Origin: Deltaproteobacteria bacterium
GTDB taxonomy: Bacteria > Myxococcota > JACRCW01
Reading direction: 5' to 3'
DNA length: 64,000 nt
Assembly (NCBI GenBank): GCA_016218805.1
Contig: JACRCW010000169.1
Location: 1 to 64,000 of the forward strand
A program made the translations under genes and the position numbers. Numbering within the stretch: the first letter of the stretch is position 1; the number at the start of each line of letters is the position of its first letter. Of this stretch, positions 1 through 29,004 are shown in pieces. The notes below the pieces were generated by a model. That model worked only from the letters and a program-made list of their open reading frames with translations. It made no database searches and was not told the origin of the DNA.

Positions 1-99
1 AGGACTGCCTTCGGATTCCACTCCGCCGAAGCCCTCATTGCGCTGGCCTATGCCAAGTTCGGCGGACTCTGCCCGCCGCTGCCAACCATGCTCTCGTGA
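1..99 (+). CDS. C-terminal end of a transposase (partial)
   Basis: Frame 1 is open from the window edge to a TGA at 97-99. The 32 residues contain GFHSAEALIALA and GGLCPPLP. A tail of the form GFxSxxALIALAxxxxGGxCPPLP is one I associate with ISL3-like transposases; this is recall and not a search. The body of the gene lies outside the window. Just downstream, a Clp-type ATPase gene on the other strand stops abruptly, which is what an insertion sequence ending here would cause. Confidence 0.45.
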   Translation, partial: RTAFGFHSAEALIALAYAKFGGLCPPLPTMLS

Positions 100-141
100 T
101 CCCATGCGTCAATTTCAACCCATTCGGAGTGCAGGAGGGCC
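100..141. mobile_element. Probable right end of the insertion sequence
   Basis: This stretch lies between the transposase stop and the last residues of the truncated ATPase that still look like a Clp family protein (QYMEPAL). The exact terminus and target duplication cannot be fixed because the other end of the element is outside the window. The boundary is inferred from where homology to the ATPase family seems to stop. Confidence 0.3.
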
Positions 142-1191
142 GGAAAGCGCGGGTTCCATGTATTGCGCCACGTGGGTCTTCCCCTGGCGGGTCTGACCGG
201 CGAACGCCATGGAGGCCAGGTCATCCAGGTAGAGCACGTCCCCGAGCTCGCTGAGCTCCCGCAACATCTCCTGGGCACGCGCCTCCCATTGCCCGACGTA
301 GCTCATCCCCGCAATGAAGCGATTTCCGTCAACGCGCCACACGTCACGCCGCTGATTGGCCTTGCTGTAGGCAACGTGGAGCCGGCGCGTGAACTCATGC
401 ACCAGCGCGGTCTTTCCTGCGCCGGATGGGCCCACCAGGCACACCGCCAGACCCTCGCGCGCCTCAAAGGTGGACACCAGTTGCCGCACCAGCGCCTCAC
501 GACCGAGACACCGCTCCAGCGTGTCATCCTGCGCGGCGTGACTGAGGTTTCTGCAGACGGTGCGCAGCGTGTCGGCCGTCAGCCGCCTACGACGACGACG
601 CTCCTCCTTCTGCAACGGCGTCTCCGGCTCGCGCGTGCCCGGCGCCGCACGCGGTTTGTGCTGCGTCCTCTTCGCCAACCGCGGCAGCACGCTTGACGGG
701 TAGACATCCACCTCAAGGATGTCCAAACGCTCCCTATGGCGCGAAACGCAGCTTTCAAGCGATTCAGCACGGGTTGCGAGGAGGTGCTTGCCCAGACGCC
801 GCGCCAGGGTGTCCGGCAGGGAGTCCAGGGACGCCAGCGCAAAGCGCGCCTCCGGCAACCTGATTGGGGTCACGACGAAGAAGTCATCCTTCGGCCACTT
901 CTCAATGAACACCGACACCATGCCCTTCAACTCGGCCTTGCGGCCCCGCTTCGGGTCCCGCGCCACGGAGTCCAGCCGCACCTGCCGCAGGCTCATGTGC
1001 GGCGGCAGGGCAAACGCCGCCTGCTCCAACGCACTGCTGTGCTCGTACGTATCCATCACCATCAACGCGAGATCGTCCCTGAGTTCCGCGGCCGACCCGC
1101 CCGACGTCCGGAACTCCGGCATGGCAGGCAACCACATTTCCACGTGGCGCGCGGAATGACGATCCACGATGAGCGGCAGCTTCAGTTCCAC
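115..1191 (-). pseudogene. Clp/Hsp100-type AAA ATPase truncated by an insertion
   Basis: An open frame of 358 residues. Residues 1-230 are a divergent N-terminal region with a basic linker (KEERRRRRRL). The first Hsp100 AAA module then begins: Walker A GPSGAGKT at 254-261, the pore-side motif RFIAGMSYVGQWE near 291-303 and Walker B LYLDDLA near 320. The frame ends at QYMEPALSGPPALRMG, so the rest of module 1 and all of module 2 are missing. It is a paralogue of the upstream gene, with which it overlaps by 10 bases, so the two were probably co-transcribed. A transposase end lies directly downstream. The product is very likely inactive as an unfoldase, although the N-terminal half could still be made. 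Confidence 0.7.
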
Positions 1192-4100
1192 AGCGCCACC
1201 TCGTCCACGTCGAGCTGTTGTTCCAACCAGGCCTGCCAGATGTCGGCCAGGGGCGGCGGGTGGCCATCCACCAGCGGGTAGCCAGTCCTGGTGCGCAGGT
1301 CCTGGATCACGTGCTTGTCCCAGTCCACGCGCCGCACCTCAGCGCCGGGCTTGGCCTTCTCAATCTCCTCCAGGTCCGGCAGCGCGGCTCCCGCCCGCAC
1401 TGCATCAACCAGAATGCGCAGCAGAAACGTGTTCCCGTTGGTGATGACGCGGTGGACGCCGTGCTCCGCACGGAGCAACCACCGCGCTGAAGTACCACCA
1501 AACGTGAGCGCCACAGCGAGCGCCTCATCGCCGGGAGGCGGCTGCCGGTCGTCGGGGCGCTTCCACTGGGGCGCCTGGGTGATCCGCGGTGGCTTGCCGG
1601 GCCGGCCGGCCGGCGTCTTCACCTCCCGCACCACGAGCACCTGGCAGTCCGTGCAGCTTATGGCATTCCGGTAGGCATGAACCCACTGGCGGGCCTGGGC
1701 GGCTCCGCCGCGGCTCCACGTCATGACCACCCGCACCGGGCTCCGGGGAGGATGCATGGCGGCAAAGAGTTCTTCCGCCATGGGCCGGAGGCCCGCTTCC
1801 ACCGCCACCAGGTCCCCCCGCAACGAAGTGAGCGAATCCGCCGAACGATCGTAAAAGGCCTCAAACGCCACATCTTCAATGGCCGTGGCCTGGCGGGAAC
1901 CGTGCTCCAGTTTCTCCACGATTTCCCGGGCAACCGTGGCATCCTGGGATTGCTTTTCCGCGGCGCTGTGATCCGCCCAGAAGGCGGGATGTTTGCTCGC
2001 CTTGTCAAAGAGGGCGGTGCGCTCCCGCAACTGCGTGACCACGGCACTGCGCTGGAGCTTCATTAGGCGCGCGCGCAGCTCGGCGGCGTCCGCCAGCAGT
2101 TGTTCAACCTGCGCGGTCATGTCCGGCGCGCCACGGCTGTCACCAAGGTGCGTGAAGACCACCCTTTCACCGTCGGCTTCGGCCGCCAGCACTGCGCCCC
2201 GGGTGTTGGGATGGGACGCCAATGACGACGCCAGGGGAACCACCAGGTCGCGCTCCAGCGCACGTTTGAGTGGGCGGGCGCCGTAGCGCGGATCCACACC
2301 GTTCTTCAGCAGGAGCGAACGCGCAACCGCGCCCACCTCCATGCGTACTCCCAGGCGGCGCAGTCCTTCCCGACGGGGAACGGCCTGCAACTCACGGTCA
2401 AGCACGTGGTGGAGGACTGGTGGCGGCAGTGACGAGAAGACAATGACGTCATCCAGCCGGTTGAAGAGCTCCGGGCGGAAGAACCGCTCCACCTCGCCCC
2501 GGTAGTGCCTGCGCCGGTCAGCGTCCTCCGCGCCACCCTCCGCGGACCGGCCAAATCCCACTGTGGTGCGCAACGTGTCCGCGCCAAGGTTGGACGTCAG
2601 GATGATGACGGCGTTCCGGAAGTCCGTGAAGCGTCCCGTGGCGTCGGTCAGGCGCCCCTCCCCCAGCACGCCCAACAACGCGTCAAACACCGCCGGGTGC
2701 GCCTTCTCAATCTCATCCAGCAGCACCACGCAGAACGGCTCCCGCCGCACGGACGACGCCAGCAGCCCGGGACTCTCCGGGGTACCCAGGAGCCGCTCCA
2801 GCGCATCCGGCCCGGCGTATTCACCCATATCCAGGCGCACGAGGCGCTCGCGCGAGGAAAAGACGCATTCGCACAGCGCCTTGGCAAGTTCAGTCTTTCC
2901 CACGCCGGTGGGCCCGCAGAAGAACAACACCGCCATGGGCCGGTGTTCATCCGTCAGCCCGGCCTTGATCCGCGCCACGGCTTCCACCGCGCGGGCCACC
3001 GCTTCGTCCTGCCCCATCACCGCGCGTGCCATGCTGGCCTGCAGTTCCGCGCGCGGCATGGGCAGGTCGTCCCGGAGCAGCCGCTCGGGTAGGCCGCTTT
3101 CTGACGAGAAATGCCCCACCGCCACGTTCTCCGTGATGCGCGTGGTGCCGGCATGTGCCGCCGCGTCGGCGACGCGCCGGAGGAACGCGGCCCCCGTCCC
3201 AACCGCCGAACCATAGGGCCAGAACCGCCGGGCCAGCCGGAGGGTCAGCCGCACCACCTCGTCGTCAATCACAACCTTTCTGCGCGTGCCCTGGCGGCCG
3301 GCAACAGCCAGCAGGACGCGCTCCGCCTGGGCAGGGGGCGGTTCCTCCACGCGCAGCACGGTCCACTGCCGTGCAAAGGACTGGTTGATGTTCTCCACGC
3401 GTGACCACGCCTCCGGAGTTGCCTCCGCCACCACGCTGATACGACGGGTTGCCAGGAGCGGGGTGATCAATTGGGAGACATTCTCCTCGCTGTGTGCGCT
3501 CTTGCCCGCGTGCAACAGGTCCTCTGCCGTTCCCAGGTCCAGCAGCACCCGGGACCGCTCCGCCTCCGCAAACGCTCGGAGCGTGTCTCCCTGCCACCCA
3601 CCCAACATGCCGCCGCCGGCAATCAACCGCGGGCCGTCCAGGCGGAAGAACGGCCGCACGCGGCGGCCGGACGCCTGACGCTCCGCGGTCAACGCGCACG
3701 CAAGTTCATCCACCAGTGCCGTCTTGCCCACTCCGGCGCGCCCCACGATCACAACGGGCTCCGGACGTTCCGCCACCATCATGTTCCTGAGGCTGTGCAC
3801 CAGCGCATCCACGTGAAACGCGCGCTCCAGTGTTCCTTCAAGGGCCAACCGGTGCAGGGCCACGCCCTTCGCCTCCAGGAGCGGCGTGGCAAACCGGCGG
3901 CGCACCCTGGCCGTCCACTTCTCTTCGGGGAGATCTTCCGGCGGGCCGTCCTCATCGGAGGGTGCCGCCGTGTGACTCTCCTCGTCCGTATCCGCATCCG
4001 GAAGTTCCGGATCGTCGTCGTCCTGTGGATCGGGCAGGCGTTCACGATGAAGGTCCTTGGCCCCGATGTCAGACAGGCGAACCGGTTCGGCGGACACTTC

Positions 4101-4568
4101 CACGTGCTGGAACAACTCGGAACCGTCACTCCGCAGGCCCAGCAGCGAGTGGTCCCCCTGGGCCTCCAGATGCGCCTCCAGGAGGCGCTCCGCCGTGGTG
4201 GCCGCGTGTTCGTCGTCCTTCACCCAGGCGCGCCAATCCAGCCGCGGGACCCATACCTCCGCAAAGCCGGCGTGCACCGCCGTCAGCACGGCGGCAAACG
4301 CCAGCGGTTGCAGGTTGCGCCCTTGCGGTGTCCACACGGGAAGCGACTTGGGCGCCAGGCCCAGCGGGCGGAAGGCGGGACCATGCGGGAATGACGCCAT
4401 GAGGCGCGGATGCGTGCGGGAGATCATGTCATCCAGCGCCAGGGTGAGTTCCTCCAGCGCGGGTTCCAGCGCCACCGCGTGCAGCGAAAGCGAACGGAGT
4501 CCCTTGGGTACAACCGAAACCCGTCCGCTGGCATGGCGCGCCACAAGCGTGATGATGCGGAACCGCAT
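1182..4568 (-). CDS. Two-module Clp/Hsp100 ATPase fused to a release-factor-like domain
   Basis: A protein of 1128 residues. Residues 1-220 are a unique N-terminus ending in an acidic linker. AAA module 1 has Walker A GRAGVGKT (276-283), but its Walker B is degenerate (VLLDLG near 341). AAA module 2 is intact, with GPTGVGKT (552-559), VVLLDEIEKAH (614-624) and a normal D2-small domain (NGVDPRYGARPLKRAL). After TSNLGA comes VGFG (670-673), where ClpA and ClpC carry their ClpP-docking tripeptide. Residues about 817-1128 resemble peptide chain release factor 2: HPAFWADH (PCRF domain), RAEHGVHRV (1033-1041) and DLRTRTGYPLVDG near 1090. The GGQ catalytic motif is absent. The likely role is ATP-driven remodelling directed by a ribosome- or RNA-binding module; this is inference. 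The truncated paralogue follows with a 10-base overlap. Confidence 0.8.
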   Translation of the reverse strand: MRFRIITLVARHASGRVSVVPKGLRSLSLHAVALEPALEELTLALDDMISRTHPRLMASFPHGPAFRPLGLAPKSLPVWTPQGRNLQPLAFAAVLTAVHAGFAEVWVPRLDWRAWVKDDEHAATTAERLLEAHLEAQGDHSLLGLRSDGSELFQHVEVSAEPVRLSDIGAKDLHRERLPDPQDDDDPELPDADTDEESHTAAPSDEDGPPEDLPEEKWTARVRRRFATPLLEAKGVALHRLALEGTLERAFHVDALVHSLRNMMVAERPEPVVIVGRAGVGKTALVDELACALTAERQASGRRVRPFFRLDGPRLIAGGGMLGGWQGDTLRAFAEAERSRVLLDLGTAEDLLHAGKSAHSEENVSQLITPLLATRRISVVAEATPEAWSRVENINQSFARQWTVLRVEEPPPAQAERVLLAVAGRQGTRRKVVIDDEVVRLTLRLARRFWPYGSAVGTGAAFLRRVADAAAHAGTTRITENVAVGHFSSESGLPERLLRDDLPMPRAELQASMARAVMGQDEAVARAVEAVARIKAGLTDEHRPMAVLFFCGPTGVGKTELAKALCECVFSSRERLVRLDMGEYAGPDALERLLGTPESPGLLASSVRREPFCVVLLDEIEKAHPAVFDALLGVLGEGRLTDATGRFTDFRNAVIILTSNLGADTLRTTVGFGRSAEGGAEDADRRRHYRGEVERFFRPELFNRLDDVIVFSSLPPPVLHHVLDRELQAVPRREGLRRLGVRMEVGAVARSLLLKNGVDPRYGARPLKRALERDLVVPLASSLASHPNTRGAVLAAEADGERVVFTHLGDSRGAPDMTAQVEQLLADAAELRARLMKLQRSAVVTQLRERTALFDKASKHPAFWADHSAAEKQSQDATVAREIVEKLEHGSRQATAIEDVAFEAFYDRSADSLTSLRGDLVAVEAGLRPMAEELFAAMHPPRSPVRVVMTWSRGGAAQARQWVHAYRNAISCTDCQVLVVREVKTPAGRPGKPPRITQAPQWKRPDDRQPPPGDEALAVALTFGGTSARWLLRAEHGVHRVITNGNTFLLRILVDAVRAGAALPDLEEIEKAKPGAEVRRVDWDKHVIQDLRTRTGYPLVDGHPPPLADIWQAWLEQQLDVDEVALWN

Positions 4569-7829: not shown

Positions 7830-10800
7830 TCAGCCGGGCCCGGCCTTCTTGCGCAGCTTCTTGACCGCGGTCTCAATCTTCTCGTTGAGGCCGCGCTCCT
7901 TGCGCAGGGCCACCGCGGCGCGCTCCGCATCGTCAACCAGTTGCTTGAGCTCGCGCGCTTTTTCAATGGCCAGCTCCACCATGGCCTGCTGTTCGGCCAG
8001 TTCCTCCACCTGGGCGGCGGCGCGGTCCAGCAGTTCACGCGTGGCGCCCACCTCGTCACGCAGGCCGGACCACTGGCGGCCGGCCTCCTGCAGGTCCTCC
8101 AGGTTGTGCTGCAGCGCGTGGACACCGGCGCGGGCCTCCTGCACGTCGGCCACCACGCGTCCCACCTCGTCGGCGCGCGCGCGTGCGGCCGCGGCGGCGC
8201 GCTCCACCTCTTCGCGGCGGCGCTCCAGCACGTCCAGGGAATCATGCACCTCCTGCACCACGCTGAGGCGCTGCACCACGCTCTGCAATTCCTGGTCAGC
8301 CGCGGCCGCCATGGTGCGGACCTGGTCAAACATGGCCTGCCGCGCGTCCACGCGCTCCGCCGCGCCCTGCAGGGCCACGCGCTTCTCCTCCATGGTCCGC
8401 ACCAGGCGCTCCAGGGTGCGGGCGTCATCCTGGGATGCGCCCAGTTGTGACTCCAGCGCCACCTGGGTGGCGCGGGCATCCGCGGCGGCACCGGCCAGCG
8501 CCTGCTCCAGGGCGCCCACCCGCCCCAGCTCGGTGACCAGCTGTGAGGCCTGCCGGGAGCGCTCATCCAGCAGGCGCGCGTACTCCTCCTGGCGGCGGAC
8601 CAACTCGCGCAGCGCCTGCTCCTGCGCGGCCAGGTCGGACTTCTGGACCGCCATGGCGGTCAGGCGCTTCTCCGCCTCTTCCATGCGCGTGCGGATGCCG
8701 CGGATCTGCTCGGGGAGGGCAGCCAGCTTGCCGCGGAGGTCCTGCACCGCCTCCATCTCGCGGCGCAGGCCTTCCAGCTGCTGCCGAACGCCGTCGGTCG
8801 CCACGGACAGCGTCTGGATGTCACCGCGGCGCTTGAGCAGTTCCTGCCACTGGTTCTCCACGTCCTGGTGCAGGCCGGCCAGGCGGTCCAGGCGCGTGTG
8901 GATCTCCTCGGTCTGCCGCGCCCGGTGCTGCAGCTCCTCCATCTGGGACTCAATTTCGCGGCGGGACGCCACGGCGCCGGCCAGGACCTCCTGCCGCTCC
9001 TCCACCTCATCCAGCGCGCGCTGCAATTCGTCCGCGCGGCCGGCCATGGCGGGGAGCCCGTCCTGCGCCGCGCGCAGCCGGGAGAGCAGCGCGTCCGCCA
9101 AGGACGCTTCGCGCGCCAACTCCGCGCGTGACCGCTCCGCCGCCTCGCGTGCCAGCTCCCACTGTTTCAACGCGGCGTGCTGTTCCTGGAGCCCCGCGTA
9201 CATCTGCTCAATGGACGCCATGTGTTCCGCGGTGGCGTGCGCGGCCTGTTTGACCTGATCCATGCGGGCGCGCGCGTCCTCCAGCTGGGCGCCGCGGTCA
9301 CGCAGCTCGTCGTGGCGCTCGTGCAGCTCGCCCATCTCGGCCGCCACGCGGTCAGACAGGGCCTTGAGCAGCTCCCCGTCGGCGCGGACGCGGCGCGCGG
9401 CATCTTCCGTGCGCTCCGCGGCAGCCTCGGACGCGTTGAGGCGCGCTTCCAGGGCCTGCGCGCGCCGTGACGCATCCTCCATGATCTCGCGCGCGGTCTT
9501 GGCCACCTCGTTGGACTCGCGCAGGAGGGCGGCGTCCCGCAGCACCTGGTCGCGCATGGCACGCACGCCCTGCATCTCGCGGCCGGCCTCCGTGACAAAG
9601 TTCCGCAGCGCCTCCACCTGGTCCCGTTCCTCACCGGACAGGAACAGGTCCCGCGCGGCCCCACTGATCCGCTGCTCCAGCGCGGCCAGCGTCTCCAGCT
9701 GTCCGGCCACGGCGCGTTGCCGGTCCTCCATTTCGCGCAGCCGGGGATGCATGCGCGCCAGCATCTCATCCCACTGCTGGGGTGATCCCGCGCGGGCCAC
9801 AATGTCCGTGACCACGTCCGAAGTGGCCTGCGCCTGGTCAATCAGCGGCTTGAGGCGCGTTTCCACGCCCTGGGCCACGCGCTGCATCAACTCCACCTGC
9901 TCGCCCTGCTCGCCCAGGGAGGCCACGGATTCCGCCAGGGACTGCTGCAGCGCACCCGCCTGCATCACCAGCCCGCCCAGCTTCAGCGCGGTGGCCTCCG
10001 CGCCGGCCAGCCGCTGCTCCATGGCGCCGAATCTCTGCTCGCGCTGTTCCACGGCGGCCATGCGCTGCGCCTGGCGGGTGGTCAGCGCCTCGGCCTGCCG
10101 CACCATTTCCATCAGCGCCTGGGCGCGGTGCGCCGCGTGCTGCTCCAGCTCGTCCGTGCCCATCCGCTCCACGGCGGGGGACTCATCCAGGCTGGCGCGG
10201 GGCGTGCGCGCGTTGGGTGGGCGGCGTCCCTGACCGGCGGCGGCCGCGTGGCGGGCCGCGCCCACACACACCACCAGGCGCGGGTCCACGGACAACCGCG
10301 GATCCTTCTTGAAGTACCGGCGCAGCGCCAGCGCCACAAACGGCAGCCGGGTGGGCCCGCCCGACAGGATCACGTGGTCCACCTGTGCGGCGGTGACCTG
10401 CGCGGTGCGCAGCGCCTCGTCACAGATCTTGAACCCGCGCTGCACCAGGTCCGCCACCATGCGCTCCAGGTGCGGGCGCTGCAGCACCAGGTCCACGTCA
10501 TGCAGGGTGCCGTCCGCGGCGGGGACCGCGGGGACGGCCAGGCGCGCGGACTCCGCGTCCGCCAGCGCGTTCTTGGCCTGCTCCGCCGCGTCACGGATGC
10601 GCACCAGCGCGGCCGGGCTCTGCGCCAGGTCCACGCCCTGCTGGGCGCGGCACGCTTCCACCACGGACGAGACAATGCGGTTGTCCAGGTCATCCCCGCC
10701 CCACGTGGGGTCCTGGGACGCACCCGCCACGCGGCCCGCGCCGCCGCCCAGTTCCACCAGGGTGGCGCGGCATTCGTCCGCGCTCAGCTCAAACACCAGC

Positions 10801-11372
10801 GCGCGGACCGCGGGCCCGTCATCCAGCCCATAGGCGCGTGCGGCGGCCACCGGTTCTTCAATCACGTCCAGCGGCTCCAGCCCGGCCAGCCGCAGCGCGT
10901 CCGCCGCCGCGGCGCGCTGGCGCTCATTGAACCACGGCGGCACGGCCACCACGCCCGCCTCCGGGGCCTCCCCCAACCGGTCCCGCGCGCGCGCGCGCAG
11001 CTCGCGCACCAGGAACGCCTCAATCTCCTCAGGGCCGTACGCCCGGCCGTGGAGCACCAGCCGCACGGAATGCTCGGGGCCCTCGCGCAACTCGTAGGGC
11101 AGCGCCGCGCGCGCCTTCTGGACCTCGTCAGAAAAGAACGGGCGCCCCAGCAGCCGCTTGGCGCGCGCCACCGTGGTCCGCGGCGCGGTGAGCAGCTGAT
11201 CCCGCGCCTCCCGCCCCACCAGGATCCGGCCGTCCGCCAGGATGGACACCACGGACGGAAGCTGCGGCTCACCCCACGCGTCAGGGATCACCTGCGGCAC
11301 GCCATCCTTCACGGCCGCGGCGCGGGTGAAGCGCGTACCCAGGTCGATCCCGAGTGCCAGGGCGTCCGCCAT
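7830..11372 (-). CDS. Hsp70-type ATPase head fused to a giant coiled coil
   Basis: A protein of 1180 residues. Residues 1-380 are an Hsp70 nucleotide-binding domain: phosphate-1 loop GIDLGT (8-13), Lys72 in AKRLLGRPF, IEEPVAAARAYGLD near 171 and adenosine motif ILSGGPTRLP near 335. The phosphate-2 loop, normally DLGGGT, reads ELSADE near 195, so ATP hydrolysis may be weak or absent. No peptide-binding domain follows; instead about 780 residues are continuous heptad-like coiled coil. The ATG at 11372 begins exactly at the Hsp70 domain; the frame extends further 5-prime without homology. Its last 60 residues resemble those of the divergent coiled-coil gene. A structural, polarity or chromosome-organising role is conceivable but not shown. 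Confidence 0.8.
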   Translation of the reverse strand: MADALALGIDLGTRFTRAAAVKDGVPQVIPDAWGEPQLPSVVSILADGRILVGREARDQLLTAPRTTVARAKRLLGRPFFSDEVQKARAALPYELREGPEHSVRLVLHGRAYGPEEIEAFLVRELRARARDRLGEAPEAGVVAVPPWFNERQRAAAADALRLAGLEPLDVIEEPVAAARAYGLDDGPAVRALVFELSADECRATLVELGGGAGRVAGASQDPTWGGDDLDNRIVSSVVEACRAQQGVDLAQSPAALVRIRDAAEQAKNALADAESARLAVPAVPAADGTLHDVDLVLQRPHLERMVADLVQRGFKICDEALRTAQVTAAQVDHVILSGGPTRLPFVALALRRYFKKDPRLSVDPRLVVCVGAARHAAAAGQGRRPPNARTPRASLDESPAVERMGTDELEQHAAHRAQALMEMVRQAEALTTRQAQRMAAVEQREQRFGAMEQRLAGAEATALKLGGLVMQAGALQQSLAESVASLGEQGEQVELMQRVAQGVETRLKPLIDQAQATSDVVTDIVARAGSPQQWDEMLARMHPRLREMEDRQRAVAGQLETLAALEQRISGAARDLFLSGEERDQVEALRNFVTEAGREMQGVRAMRDQVLRDAALLRESNEVAKTAREIMEDASRRAQALEARLNASEAAAERTEDAARRVRADGELLKALSDRVAAEMGELHERHDELRDRGAQLEDARARMDQVKQAAHATAEHMASIEQMYAGLQEQHAALKQWELAREAAERSRAELAREASLADALLSRLRAAQDGLPAMAGRADELQRALDEVEERQEVLAGAVASRREIESQMEELQHRARQTEEIHTRLDRLAGLHQDVENQWQELLKRRGDIQTLSVATDGVRQQLEGLRREMEAVQDLRGKLAALPEQIRGIRTRMEEAEKRLTAMAVQKSDLAAQEQALRELVRRQEEYARLLDERSRQASQLVTELGRVGALEQALAGAAADARATQVALESQLGASQDDARTLERLVRTMEEKRVALQGAAERVDARQAMFDQVRTMAAAADQELQSVVQRLSVVQEVHDSLDVLERRREEVERAAAAARARADEVGRVVADVQEARAGVHALQHNLEDLQEAGRQWSGLRDEVGATRELLDRAAAQVEELAEQQAMVELAIEKARELKQLVDDAERAAVALRKERGLNEKIETAVKKLRKKAGPG

Positions 11373-11565
11373 GTGCTGCCGGTTCCGTTCTCCGTGGACG
11401 CCGTGTCCTAGCACGGGCGGGCGGGCGGCCGCGGTGTGCGAGCGGTGCCTCCGCCCTCCCACCCCTGCTGCCGGCGCGGCACGCGGATCCAGGATGCGCC
11501 GGGGGCCCAAGGGTCTGTAGAGTCCGCGCCCGGGCGGGCGAACTGAACTAGCGCGGAGGCAGTGA
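11373..11565. promoter_or_regulatory. Divergent intergenic region of the two coiled-coil genes
   Basis: These 193 bp separate the starts of the Hsp70-coiled-coil gene and the coiled-coil gene and must hold both promoters. It is very GC-rich. I see no convincing -35/-10 pair. Shared control of the two genes is inferred from their arrangement and their related C-termini. Confidence 0.4.
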
Positions 11566-14058
11566 ATGGCGACGTTGTTCCGCAAGAGCGGCGGGAGCAC
11601 CGGCAAGGAGGCTGAGGAGCTGAGCGCCGCGGTGGCGGCCGCGCAGAAGGAGCGCGAGGCATTGCAGCAGCTGGTGGATCAGCTGGCCGGAGCGCAGAAG
11701 CTGGGTGACCTCATCACCCGCGCCGGCGCGGAGAAAGCGGCGCTGGAACAGGCGCTGGCCAACACGGAGAAGAACAAGCCGCGCTTTGCCTCCGCGGAGA
11801 AGGCGCTGCGTGACCTGGAGGGGCTGGCGGAGGCGCTGCAGGGCCGCGTGGCGGCCGCGGAGGGCAAGGCGGAAGCGCTGTCCAGCATGGACCAGCGGGT
11901 CCAGCGCCTGTCTGATGACGCCAAGAAGGCCGAGACCGCGGTGCAGGCCGCGTCCCAGAAGGCGCTGGACGCCGTCAAGGACGTGGAGGGGCGCCTGGAA
12001 GGCGTGGCCAAGCTGCAGGAGCTGGCCGGGCCGCTGCAGGAGAAGTTGTCGTCGTTGAACTCACTGTCTGAGTACGTGCAGCAGAAGGTGAAGCTGCTGG
12101 AGAAACAGAAGACCACGGTGGAGCACGCGCTGCTGGAGGGCAACCGGCTCAGCGAGCTGGTGTGGAAGATGGAGCAGCAGATCAAGACGCTGAAGGAGGG
12201 CGGCGCCGAGGCGGAGCGCGTGGAGCAGATCCTGGGGCGCGTGGAGGAGTTGTCCCAGCGGTCCAAGTCCGCACTGGAGGAGTCCACGCGCGGGACGGAG
12301 GCCACTGAGGCCACGGCGCGGCGCCTGGCCGAGGAGCGCGCGGCGCAGGAGGAGCTGCTGCGCACGCAGTCCGAACAGTTGGCCACCGTGCGCAAGGAGT
12401 ATGAGGCGTTCAGCGGCCGCACCGACGCGCTGCGCGGCCAGCTGGCCGAATTGGAGAAGACCGCGGGCGACCTGGCAGAGAAGGAGCGCGCGCTGGCCGG
12501 GCTGACGCAGAAGCTGGACGGCGCATCCCGCCAGATCCGGGACAACCTGGCGCAGGCGGATGCGCTGCACGCGCGGCAGTCCGCGCTGTCCGCCCTGGAG
12601 GAACAGCTGGCTGACGTGGAGGGCGTGTCCCGCAAGGCCCTGGGACAGGCCGAGTCCCTGGCGAAGGCGCAGGCGGAGTTGGACCGCATCCGCGGCGAGA
12701 TTGAGAAGCTCTACAAGTCCCACGCGGAGGTGGTGGCCCTGGTGGAGAAGCTGCGCGGCGAGCGCGTGTCGCTGGAGGCGTTCATGGAGCGCGCGCGGGA
12801 CTTTGCCACGGGGGTGCCGGAGCTGGAGCGCCGCATGGGCGGCATCAAGGACGGGCTGGCCACGCTGGATGAGTCTGAGGCGCGCGCCAAGGAGATCCTG
12901 GCGCAGTCCGCGGACATGGCGGCGCACATGGAGCGCCTGGCCGCGCACCGTGACGTGGTGGAGAAGGTGGACGGCCGCCTGACGCGGCTGCATGAGCTGA
13001 CCGCCGAGGTGGACCAGAAACACCTGGCGCAGATTGCGCGCCAGTCAGAGATTGACGGGCTGAAGAGCCGGTGTGACGCGCTGGGCATCCAGCTCAATGA
13101 CGTGGAGCACAAGGTGGACGCGGTCTCCGCCGTGGAGCGGCGCCTGTCCCCGCTGCTGGAACAGGCCAAGGCGCTCAACACGGAGCTGGACAAGGCCAAT
13201 GCGCGCTTCCGTTCCGCGCTGCGCGAGCAGGCCGCCGTGGACGCCCAGGAGAAGCGCCTCACCGCCATGGCGGAGGAGACCCGCGTCACGTCCGGGCAGG
13301 TGGAGGAACGCCTCAAGCAGGTCAACTCGCTGCAGGACGATCTCTCGCTGGCGTCGTCCGTGAAGGAGGACCTGTCCAAGGAGCTGGGCCAGGTCAGCGC
13401 GCGGCAGCTGGAGGTGGGCAGCCAGATGGACGCCGCGGAGACGCACCTCAAGCGCATCCAGGACACGCTCAAGAAGCTGGAGGGGCGCCAGAGTGTGCTG
13501 GCGCGCGGGGAAGAGGTCATCTCCCGCTTTGAGCTGCGGGTGGAGGAACTCACGCGCAACGCGGACGAGACGGACCGCAAGCTGGCGTCCCTGGCGCAGC
13601 GCGGGTCCCTGGTGGAGGCGGTCAAGAAGGAGGTGGACACCATCCACGAGATTGCCGCGCGCAGCCGCGCGGACCTGCAGAACGTGGCGGACCACCGGGC
13701 GCAGGTGACCGAGCTGCGCGCCAAGCTGGACGAGGTGCTGGCGCGCGCCGCCGAGACGCAGGACCGCATCAACGCCATTGAGGCGCGGCGCAAGGTGATT
13801 GACGCCGTGGAACAGAAGGCCAACCTCATCACCAACATGCTGGAGGACGTCCGCGTCAACCTGGAGATGCTCACGGAACAGCGGGCGGTCATTGACCACG
13901 TCATGGAGTCCGCCGCCCAGCTGGAGAAGGCGGTGCAGGACGCGCAGGCGGTGCTGCGCAACCTCCACTCGGAGCGCGAGCTGGCCGAGAAGATTGGCAG
14001 CGGCATCAAGAAGCTGCGCAGCAACCGCTCCACGCCGCCCACGGAGGGCGGCGGCTGA
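11566..14058 (+). CDS. Long coiled-coil protein, partner of the Hsp70-coiled-coil protein
   Basis: A protein of 830 residues that is almost wholly heptad-like alpha-helix, rich in Glu, Lys, Ala, Leu and Gln and without membrane segments or a recognisable enzyme domain. It starts MATLFRKSGG at an ATG. The C-terminus (TEQRAVIDHVMESAAQLEKAVQDA, read in parts, ending ERELAEKIGSGIKKLRSN) matches the end of the divergent Hsp70-coiled-coil protein (EQQAMVELAIEKA, ERGLNEKIETAVKKLRKK). The two probably derive from a duplication and may co-assemble. It ends 16 bp from the convergent ATP-grasp gene. The function is unknown; a cytoskeletal or scaffold role is inference. Confidence 0.8.
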   Translation: MATLFRKSGGSTGKEAEELSAAVAAAQKEREALQQLVDQLAGAQKLGDLITRAGAEKAALEQALANTEKNKPRFASAEKALRDLEGLAEALQGRVAAAEGKAEALSSMDQRVQRLSDDAKKAETAVQAASQKALDAVKDVEGRLEGVAKLQELAGPLQEKLSSLNSLSEYVQQKVKLLEKQKTTVEHALLEGNRLSELVWKMEQQIKTLKEGGAEAERVEQILGRVEELSQRSKSALEESTRGTEATEATARRLAEERAAQEELLRTQSEQLATVRKEYEAFSGRTDALRGQLAELEKTAGDLAEKERALAGLTQKLDGASRQIRDNLAQADALHARQSALSALEEQLADVEGVSRKALGQAESLAKAQAELDRIRGEIEKLYKSHAEVVALVEKLRGERVSLEAFMERARDFATGVPELERRMGGIKDGLATLDESEARAKEILAQSADMAAHMERLAAHRDVVEKVDGRLTRLHELTAEVDQKHLAQIARQSEIDGLKSRCDALGIQLNDVEHKVDAVSAVERRLSPLLEQAKALNTELDKANARFRSALREQAAVDAQEKRLTAMAEETRVTSGQVEERLKQVNSLQDDLSLASSVKEDLSKELGQVSARQLEVGSQMDAAETHLKRIQDTLKKLEGRQSVLARGEEVISRFELRVEELTRNADETDRKLASLAQRGSLVEAVKKEVDTIHEIAARSRADLQNVADHRAQVTELRAKLDEVLARAAETQDRINAIEARRKVIDAVEQKANLITNMLEDVRVNLEMLTEQRAVIDHVMESAAQLEKAVQDAQAVLRNLHSERELAEKIGSGIKKLRSNRSTPPTEGGG

Positions 14059-26670: not shown

Positions 26671-29000
<2,330 letters not shown>

Positions 29001-29004
<4 letters not shown>

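Follow-up and report, generated by a model that had tools for sequence, protein, structure and literature searches.

A Clp/Hsp100 ATPase fused to a release factor 2-derived module without GGQ in Myxococcota

Class-1 release factors carry a domain 1 of the PCRF fold, which is their GTPase/factor-facing domain, a stop-codon loop (SPF or PxT), and a domain 3 whose GGQ motif hydrolyzes peptidyl-tRNA. In RF2, this GGQ-containing domain 3 precedes domain 4 and is recognized by PrmC, the best-known RF2 partner. Among the bacterial relatives of RF2, PrfH and ArfB are specialized for ribosomes that are damaged or stalled. Catalytically dead release-factor relatives, Dom34/Pelota and some baeRF-1 proteins, serve ribosome rescue or shutdown, and Vms1 links a release factor-like protein to the AAA+ ATPase Cdc48 (PMC6514570). 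Here we describe a locus at which an RF2-derived body is joined directly to a Clp/Hsp100 motor. It lies in a 64,000-nucleotide stretch of contig JACRCW010000169.1 from a Deltaproteobacteria bacterium, hereafter called the window, and its features are collected in Table 1.

Table 1. Features of the locus and examples of the stand-alone fusion; positions refer to the window unless another locus is named
Feature	Position	Strand	Basis or remark
Gene 1 (type A1), 1128-aa Hsp100 with C-terminal RF2-derived module	1182..4568	(-)	first gene of three-Hsp100 operon
D1 AAA module, about residues 240-500; retains Walker A (GRAGVGKT), with VLLDLG for LxDE in a degenerate Walker B	3069..3851	(-)	profile, motif alignment
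D2 AAA module with its small lid, residues 543-786; both Walker motifs intact (A, GPTGVGKT; B, LLDE), pore loop GYVG deleted, VGF kept	2211..2942	(-)	profile, motif alignment
RF2-like module, residues 817-1128	1185..2120	(-)	profiles, hhalign, AlphaFold, Foldseek
RF domain 1 (PCRF, long helices), residues 817-938, HPAFWADH	1755..2120	(-)	profile, hhalign, AlphaFold
RF domain 2, beta-alpha-beta core with EHGVHRV; tight turn replaces SPF/decoding loop	1401..1736	(-)	hhalign, AlphaFold, alignment
RF domain 4, DLRT motif and final helix	1212..1340	(-)	hhalign, AlphaFold, alignment
Gene 2 (type A2 Hsp100), truncated	115..1191	(-)	orthologue-like for codons 1-350 (142-1191), then repeat
End of multi-copy repeat	1..141	.	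recurs at contig ends elsewhere in this genome; interrupts gene 2 and the assembly
Type B example, locus L090	9258-12107	(-)	adjoins RNase J-like gene
Type B example, locus L092	7142-9964	(+)	

The RF2-derived module of gene 1 and a second fusion family

Gene 1 begins with ATG and runs through 1128 codons with zero internal stops, and the codon-position GC of this frame (0.75/0.49/0.81) is of the coding type. Profile searches matched residues 269-781 to ClpA and ClpB (7.9e-81 for ClpA, TIGR02639), with AAA_2 at residues 543-707 and ClpB_D2-small at residues 718-786. The N-terminal domain of about 200 aa had no Pfam match and differs from those of ClpA, ClpB, ClpC, and TssH. The initial annotation of this DNA, made from the letters alone, had read the protein as two Hsp100 AAA modules followed by about 310 RF2-like residues, a reading borne out by sequence, profile, and structure.

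The module searched alone matched the prfB profile TIGR00020 (E 2.9e-6) over module residues 14-113. The PCRF profile scored 1.1e-3 in the window protein and was matched in 13 of 16 homologues (best 4.9e-7, some above its cut-off), and the family profile, when run against all PDB sequences, returned RF2 chains only (5.5e-7). By hhalign, the module aligned with a myxobacterial RF2 set over domains 1-2 (96.2%, E 2.2e-9 on the scale of a single comparison), and the DLRT segment aligned to RF2 domain 4 in a separate, weak alignment. An AlphaFold2 model built from the window sequence and 19 relatives had a pLDDT of 83 and a pTM of 0.75. When this model was compared with the PDB by Foldseek, ranks 1-33 were all RF2 or RF1, with a probability of 1.00 and a best E of 1.4e-8, so that the structural comparison with release factors suggested in the initial annotation ended in a match. 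The Foldseek TM-scores were moderate (~0.3-0.54), as expected for hinged release-factor domains with one domain missing.

The secondary structure elements follow the order of the long helices of domain 1, a beta-alpha-beta core with EHGVHR, a tight turn, and a DLRT strand pair with the final helix; in the model, the tight turn sits where RF2 has its SPF/tip loop. Alignment indicated that domain 3 and the SPF loop were both lost in all type A sequences, and GGQ, already reported as missing in the window protein, was found in 0 of 48 distinct gene-1 sequences. Hence, among the features of class-1 release factors, the domain 1/PCRF fold is present in the module, as determined by TIGR00020, PCRF, and the fold search, and the GGQ-bearing domain 3 is absent. 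Searching the window's own genome with PF00472, the family of the GGQ domain, retrieved a normal RF1, a normal RF2, an ArfB-like protein, and nothing else, indicating that the module is invisible to that family. These data demonstrated that the tail of gene 1 is an RF2-derived fold of domains 1, 2, and 4, with neither GGQ domain nor SPF loop. Because domain 3 is deleted, the earlier proposal that the module acts without releasing peptide is strongly supported.

Furthermore, a prfB family search identified a second, stand-alone Hsp100-RF2 fusion of 940 aa (type B) with a much clearer RF2 tail. Type B occurred in 87 of 195 genomes, nearly all belonging to one family (f13, which includes Myxococcus), and is common in Myxococcaceae; the window's genome carries type A only. 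Its tail aligned with RF2 over the full length (hhalign, 98.9%, E 1.7e-17) and matched PCRF at 2.1e-15. According to the alignment, domain 3 of type B is shrunken, with GGQ changed to EGx, and the stop-codon loop is deleted as in type A. Both types keep the domain 1/2/4 layout and the RF2 motifs ExGxHR and D.RT. Release factors can thus lose catalysis and decoding yet keep their body plan, and in two architectures, the operon type and the stand-alone type, a finding of relevance to the reuse of dead translation factors.

Motor motifs of the Hsp100 modules

The class I Clp/Hsp100 arrangement, two AAA+ modules with D2 Walker A/B and a D2 small domain, is present in gene 1, and the D2 Walker A and B motifs are intact throughout the family. 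In D1, Walker A is kept, whereas Walker B is degenerate in genes 1-3 of the operon and in type B and intact in the ClpA and ClpB controls of the same genome. The ClpA-type control is encoded at 26671-29004 (-) of the window (777 aa) and has both VGF and GYVG. The GYVG pore loop of D2 was found in 0 of 48 gene 1, 0 of 27 gene 2, 0 of 27 gene 3, and 0 of 28 type B sequences, and was present in the ClpA, ClpB, ClpC, and TssH controls. At the D1 pore position, genes 2 and 3 retain an aromatic residue (YxGQW); gene 1 retains one at a shifted position.

In ATPases of the ClpA/ClpC/ClpX type, the loop facing ClpP carries a tripeptide of a hydrophobic residue, G, and F or L. This ClpP-type tripeptide is VGF in the window and in 47 of 48 gene 1 sequences, MGF or LGF in 28 of 28 type B sequences, xGF (mainly LGF) in most gene 3 sequences, and TGF, SGF, or AGF in gene 2; it is absent from the ClpB control. 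Two ClpP genes were found in the window's genome. Most gene-3 orthologues, e.g., at locus L040 4129-6768 (-), have GGQQGG at the position of the D2 pore loop. The GGQ strings of gene 3 (24 of 27) were considered as a release-factor feature and rejected, since they lie in the D2 pore region and not in an RF module and are probably a coincidence.

The term unfoldase used in the initial annotation is therefore doubtful as worded: the D2 ATPase motifs and the ClpP-type tripeptide are kept, but GYVG is deleted in all members and the D1 Walker B is lost. Judged from these motifs, the two losses argue against a standard unfoldase. At the sequence level, the retained D2 Walker motifs and xGF, together with the deleted GYVG, support an ATP-driven, perhaps ClpP-linked remodeller and do not support a classical threading unfoldase.

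Distribution and the three-gene operon

At a threshold of E <= 1e-14, the module was found in 40 of 195 Myxococcota genomes, nearly always in one open frame of 1130-1270 aa; one further, weak case came from another family (G015). An earlier contig scan with the single window sequence gave no loci, and a scan of GTDB contigs with an alignment gave 22, in Myxococcus (including M. xanthus AM003), Pyxidicoccus, Corallococcus, Archangium-type genomes, other Myxococcaceae MAGs, and one record labelled Comamonas. This GTDB scan depends on short motifs, so absence outside the listed groups is not proven. The operon in the last record (L109, Comamonas sp. KCTC 72670) is Myxococcus-like, and the record probably has a wrong label or contains contaminating DNA. 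No plasmid in the plasmid search carried the module.

The initial annotation had also asked how widely the fusion occurs and whether its genes stay adjacent. In the relatives, gene 1 is directly followed by a second Hsp100 (~1130 aa) and a third (~770 aa), and this order is conserved. In a tree of Hsp100 cores, genes 1, 2, and 3 formed three clades that grouped together, apart from ClpA, ClpB, ClpC, and TssH. The gene 1 of the window, whose host belongs to a different class, was placed sister to Myxococcus gene 1 inside the f13 sequences (96/91), a placement that suggests horizontal transfer.

Neither hhalign nor profiles detected a release-factor signal when the gene-2 tail (~320 residues) was compared with RF2. 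Its AlphaFold model (pLDDT 83, pTM 0.77), however, gave 39 fold-search matches at E <= 0.001, all of them release factors. The C terminus of gene 2 thus also has an RF-like fold, visible only by structure, and RF-like tails are carried by two of the three subunits. In Archangium-type MAGs (L047-L050; groups g35, g50, and g58), the RF module contains an insert, 30 residues of which resemble the L7/L12 C-terminal domain. One member scored 1.4e-5, narrowly missing the curated cut-off, and another 0.034; as a link to translation, this resemblance is suggestive only.

In the window's genome, gene 2 shares 10 bases with the end of gene 1 and is interrupted by the repeat, which is possibly an insertion sequence. 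The rest of the assembly, which is 92% complete, contained neither the gene-2 tail nor gene 3. The operon has either been broken by an insertion in this genome, or the assembly stops at the repeat.

PADLOC returned AAA-core matches only (PDC-M37B, DolB, mad8, and weaker ones) and left the N-terminal domain and the RF module uncovered; an anti-phage defence identity was rejected, since these matches are confined to the shared AAA core. Elsewhere in the window, the protein encoded at 7830-11606 (-) has an Hsp70 ATPase domain (HSP70, E 3e-83 over residues 9-379; called from 11378), followed by ~800 coiled-coil-looking residues instead of a substrate-binding domain. A divergent gene at 11566-14058 (+) encodes a coiled-coil-like protein of 830 aa.

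In a complete Myxococcus genome, the gene order is TssH, further genes, cysW, cysT, cysP, genes 1, 2, and 3, SOD, and more genes up to ClpC, which has a zinc-finger N terminus and is the seventh gene after gene 3. M. xanthus AM003 has TssH (T6SS), genes 1-3, and ClpC in the same order on one contig. Chloramphenicol is an antibiotic that blocks the ribosome. MXAN_4823-4825 are reported as one operon of three Clp ATP-binding subunits upregulated with this drug, with log2FC of 3.57, 2.67, and 2.61, respectively, at 8 h (i.e., 6- to 12-fold) and of 1.47, 2.17, and 1.92 at 36 h; the ClpC gene MXAN_4832 was also raised (log2FC 1.19) (PMC6617876). Gene order, rather than the DK1622 record, fits genes 1, 2, and 3 to MXAN_4823, MXAN_4824, and MXAN_4825 and ClpC to MXAN_4832. 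On this identity, genes 1-3 appear to be switched on by chloramphenicol in Myxococcus. As MXAN_4832 is also up, the induction may be general to proteostasis genes.

Candidate mechanisms and relation to known systems

In the best explanation, to which we give roughly even confidence, the operon encodes a translation-stress-induced Hsp100 remodeller with a gutted RF2 tail, for which we infer docking on the ribosome. Translation stress would induce the operon, and the RF-like tails would dock the ring at the factor-binding/A-site region of the ribosome, neither reading a stop codon nor cleaving peptidyl-tRNA. ATP hydrolysis driven by D2 might then pull on or displace the nascent chain, a bound factor, or a ribosomal protein at a blocked ribosome, and the displaced material would possibly be passed to ClpP via the conserved xGF loop. 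With GYVG lost from D2, pulling would fall to the D1 pore and its aromatic residue, or the stroke would be non-threading. Likewise, docking at the A site could not use the known decoding contacts, because the SPF and tip loops, which hold the mRNA-reading residues of RF2, are deleted. Putative ribosome binding by the module, already raised in the initial annotation, is plausible; it is helped by the chloramphenicol induction, with locus tags assigned by gene order, and weakly by the L7/L12-like insert. The broken or missing operon partners in the window's genome count against this explanation.

The main rival, which we consider rather unlikely, holds that the RF2-derived tail has no ribosome role and now serves as a structural or partner-binding domain, in the assembly of mixed hexamers or in binding adaptors or substrates. 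It would account for the combined loss of the GGQ domain, SPF loop, and tip loop and for a gene-2 tail that has drifted past sequence recognition with its fold retained, and the presence of three paralogues within a single operon points to a hetero-oligomer. Nevertheless, types A and B have both retained the RF2 layout with ExGxHR and D.RT, a ribosome inhibitor induces the operon, and some members carry the L7/L12-CTD-like insert, all of which speaks against this rival. A module that mimics RF2 so as to engage RF2 partners, RF3 or one of the rescue factors, instead of the ribosome appears improbable; through such binding, or through degradation, the Clp machine would then regulate factors of termination or rescue. 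The factor-facing domain 1 is indeed the best-kept part of the module and the xGF loop suggests ClpP delivery, but the GGQ domain that PrmC recognizes has been lost, and no termination or rescue factor was seen in the gene neighbourhood of the operon. Less probable still, the RF-like tails could cap the A site of idle or inhibited ribosomes for hibernation or protection, with the Hsp100 ring only loading or removing the cap. Dead release-factor relatives have been proposed as A-site blockers tied to hibernation (PMC6514570), and the chloramphenicol induction would fit; for a cap, however, ATPase cores of this size that retain the D2 Walker motifs would be unusually costly, and no hibernation factor gene was noticed nearby. 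Finally, a frameshift joining two genes, which the initial annotation named as a refutation, a misassembly, or a chance resemblance might be suspected because the ORF of gene 1 lies near a contig edge where the repeat breaks gene 2, but this is already refuted by a single-frame fusion in nearly all relatives (40 genomes and 22 GTDB records) and by the agreement of profile and fold.

Returning to the ribosome-docked remodeller, a tail that binds ribosomes would provide a direct physical link between protein-remodelling machinery and the factor site of the ribosome, and would make it testable whether bacterial ribosome quality control has an AAA+ ring, as Cdc48 in eukaryotes. Such a test is near, given that Myxococcus xanthus is genetically tractable and an inducer of the operon is published.

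Release factors and Hsp100s are both known kinds of proteins. The present analysis adds to the initial annotation the operon with a hidden release-factor fold in gene 2, the type B family, the altered motor motifs, and the correspondence by gene order with MXAN_4823-4825. No description of a Clp-release-factor fusion was found in a search of open-access papers, with the subscription literature mostly outside its reach. Compared with RF2 (prfB; PF03462 PCRF plus PF00472 RF-1), the module agrees in fold and in the succession of domains 1, 2, and 4, with EGVHR and DLRT, but lacks domain 3 with GGQ and the SPF or tip loop and is fused to an Hsp100 C terminus. With ClpA, ClpB, ClpC, and TssH, gene 1 shares the class I order of two AAA modules, the D2 Walker A/B, the D2 small lid, and a ClpA-like xGF; it differs in the lost D1 Walker B, the deleted GYVG, and the added C-terminal RF module. 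PrfH and ArfB keep GGQ and are reduced elsewhere, whereas the module is their complement, with the body kept and the GGQ domain lost. Tentatively, these myxobacterial proteins may represent an undescribed class of ribosome-docked AAA+ machines, in which translation inhibitors would induce a mixed Hsp100 ring that uses several GGQ-less, non-decoding RF2 shells as ribosome anchors to extract or displace material from blocked ribosomes. This class would be a counterpart, in principle, of Cdc48-Vms1 quality control, although Dom34/Pelota, baeRF-1, and Vms1 have the archaeo-eukaryotic eRF1 fold, unrelated to that of bacterial RF2, and the link to the AAA+ ATPase is by binding and not by fusion.
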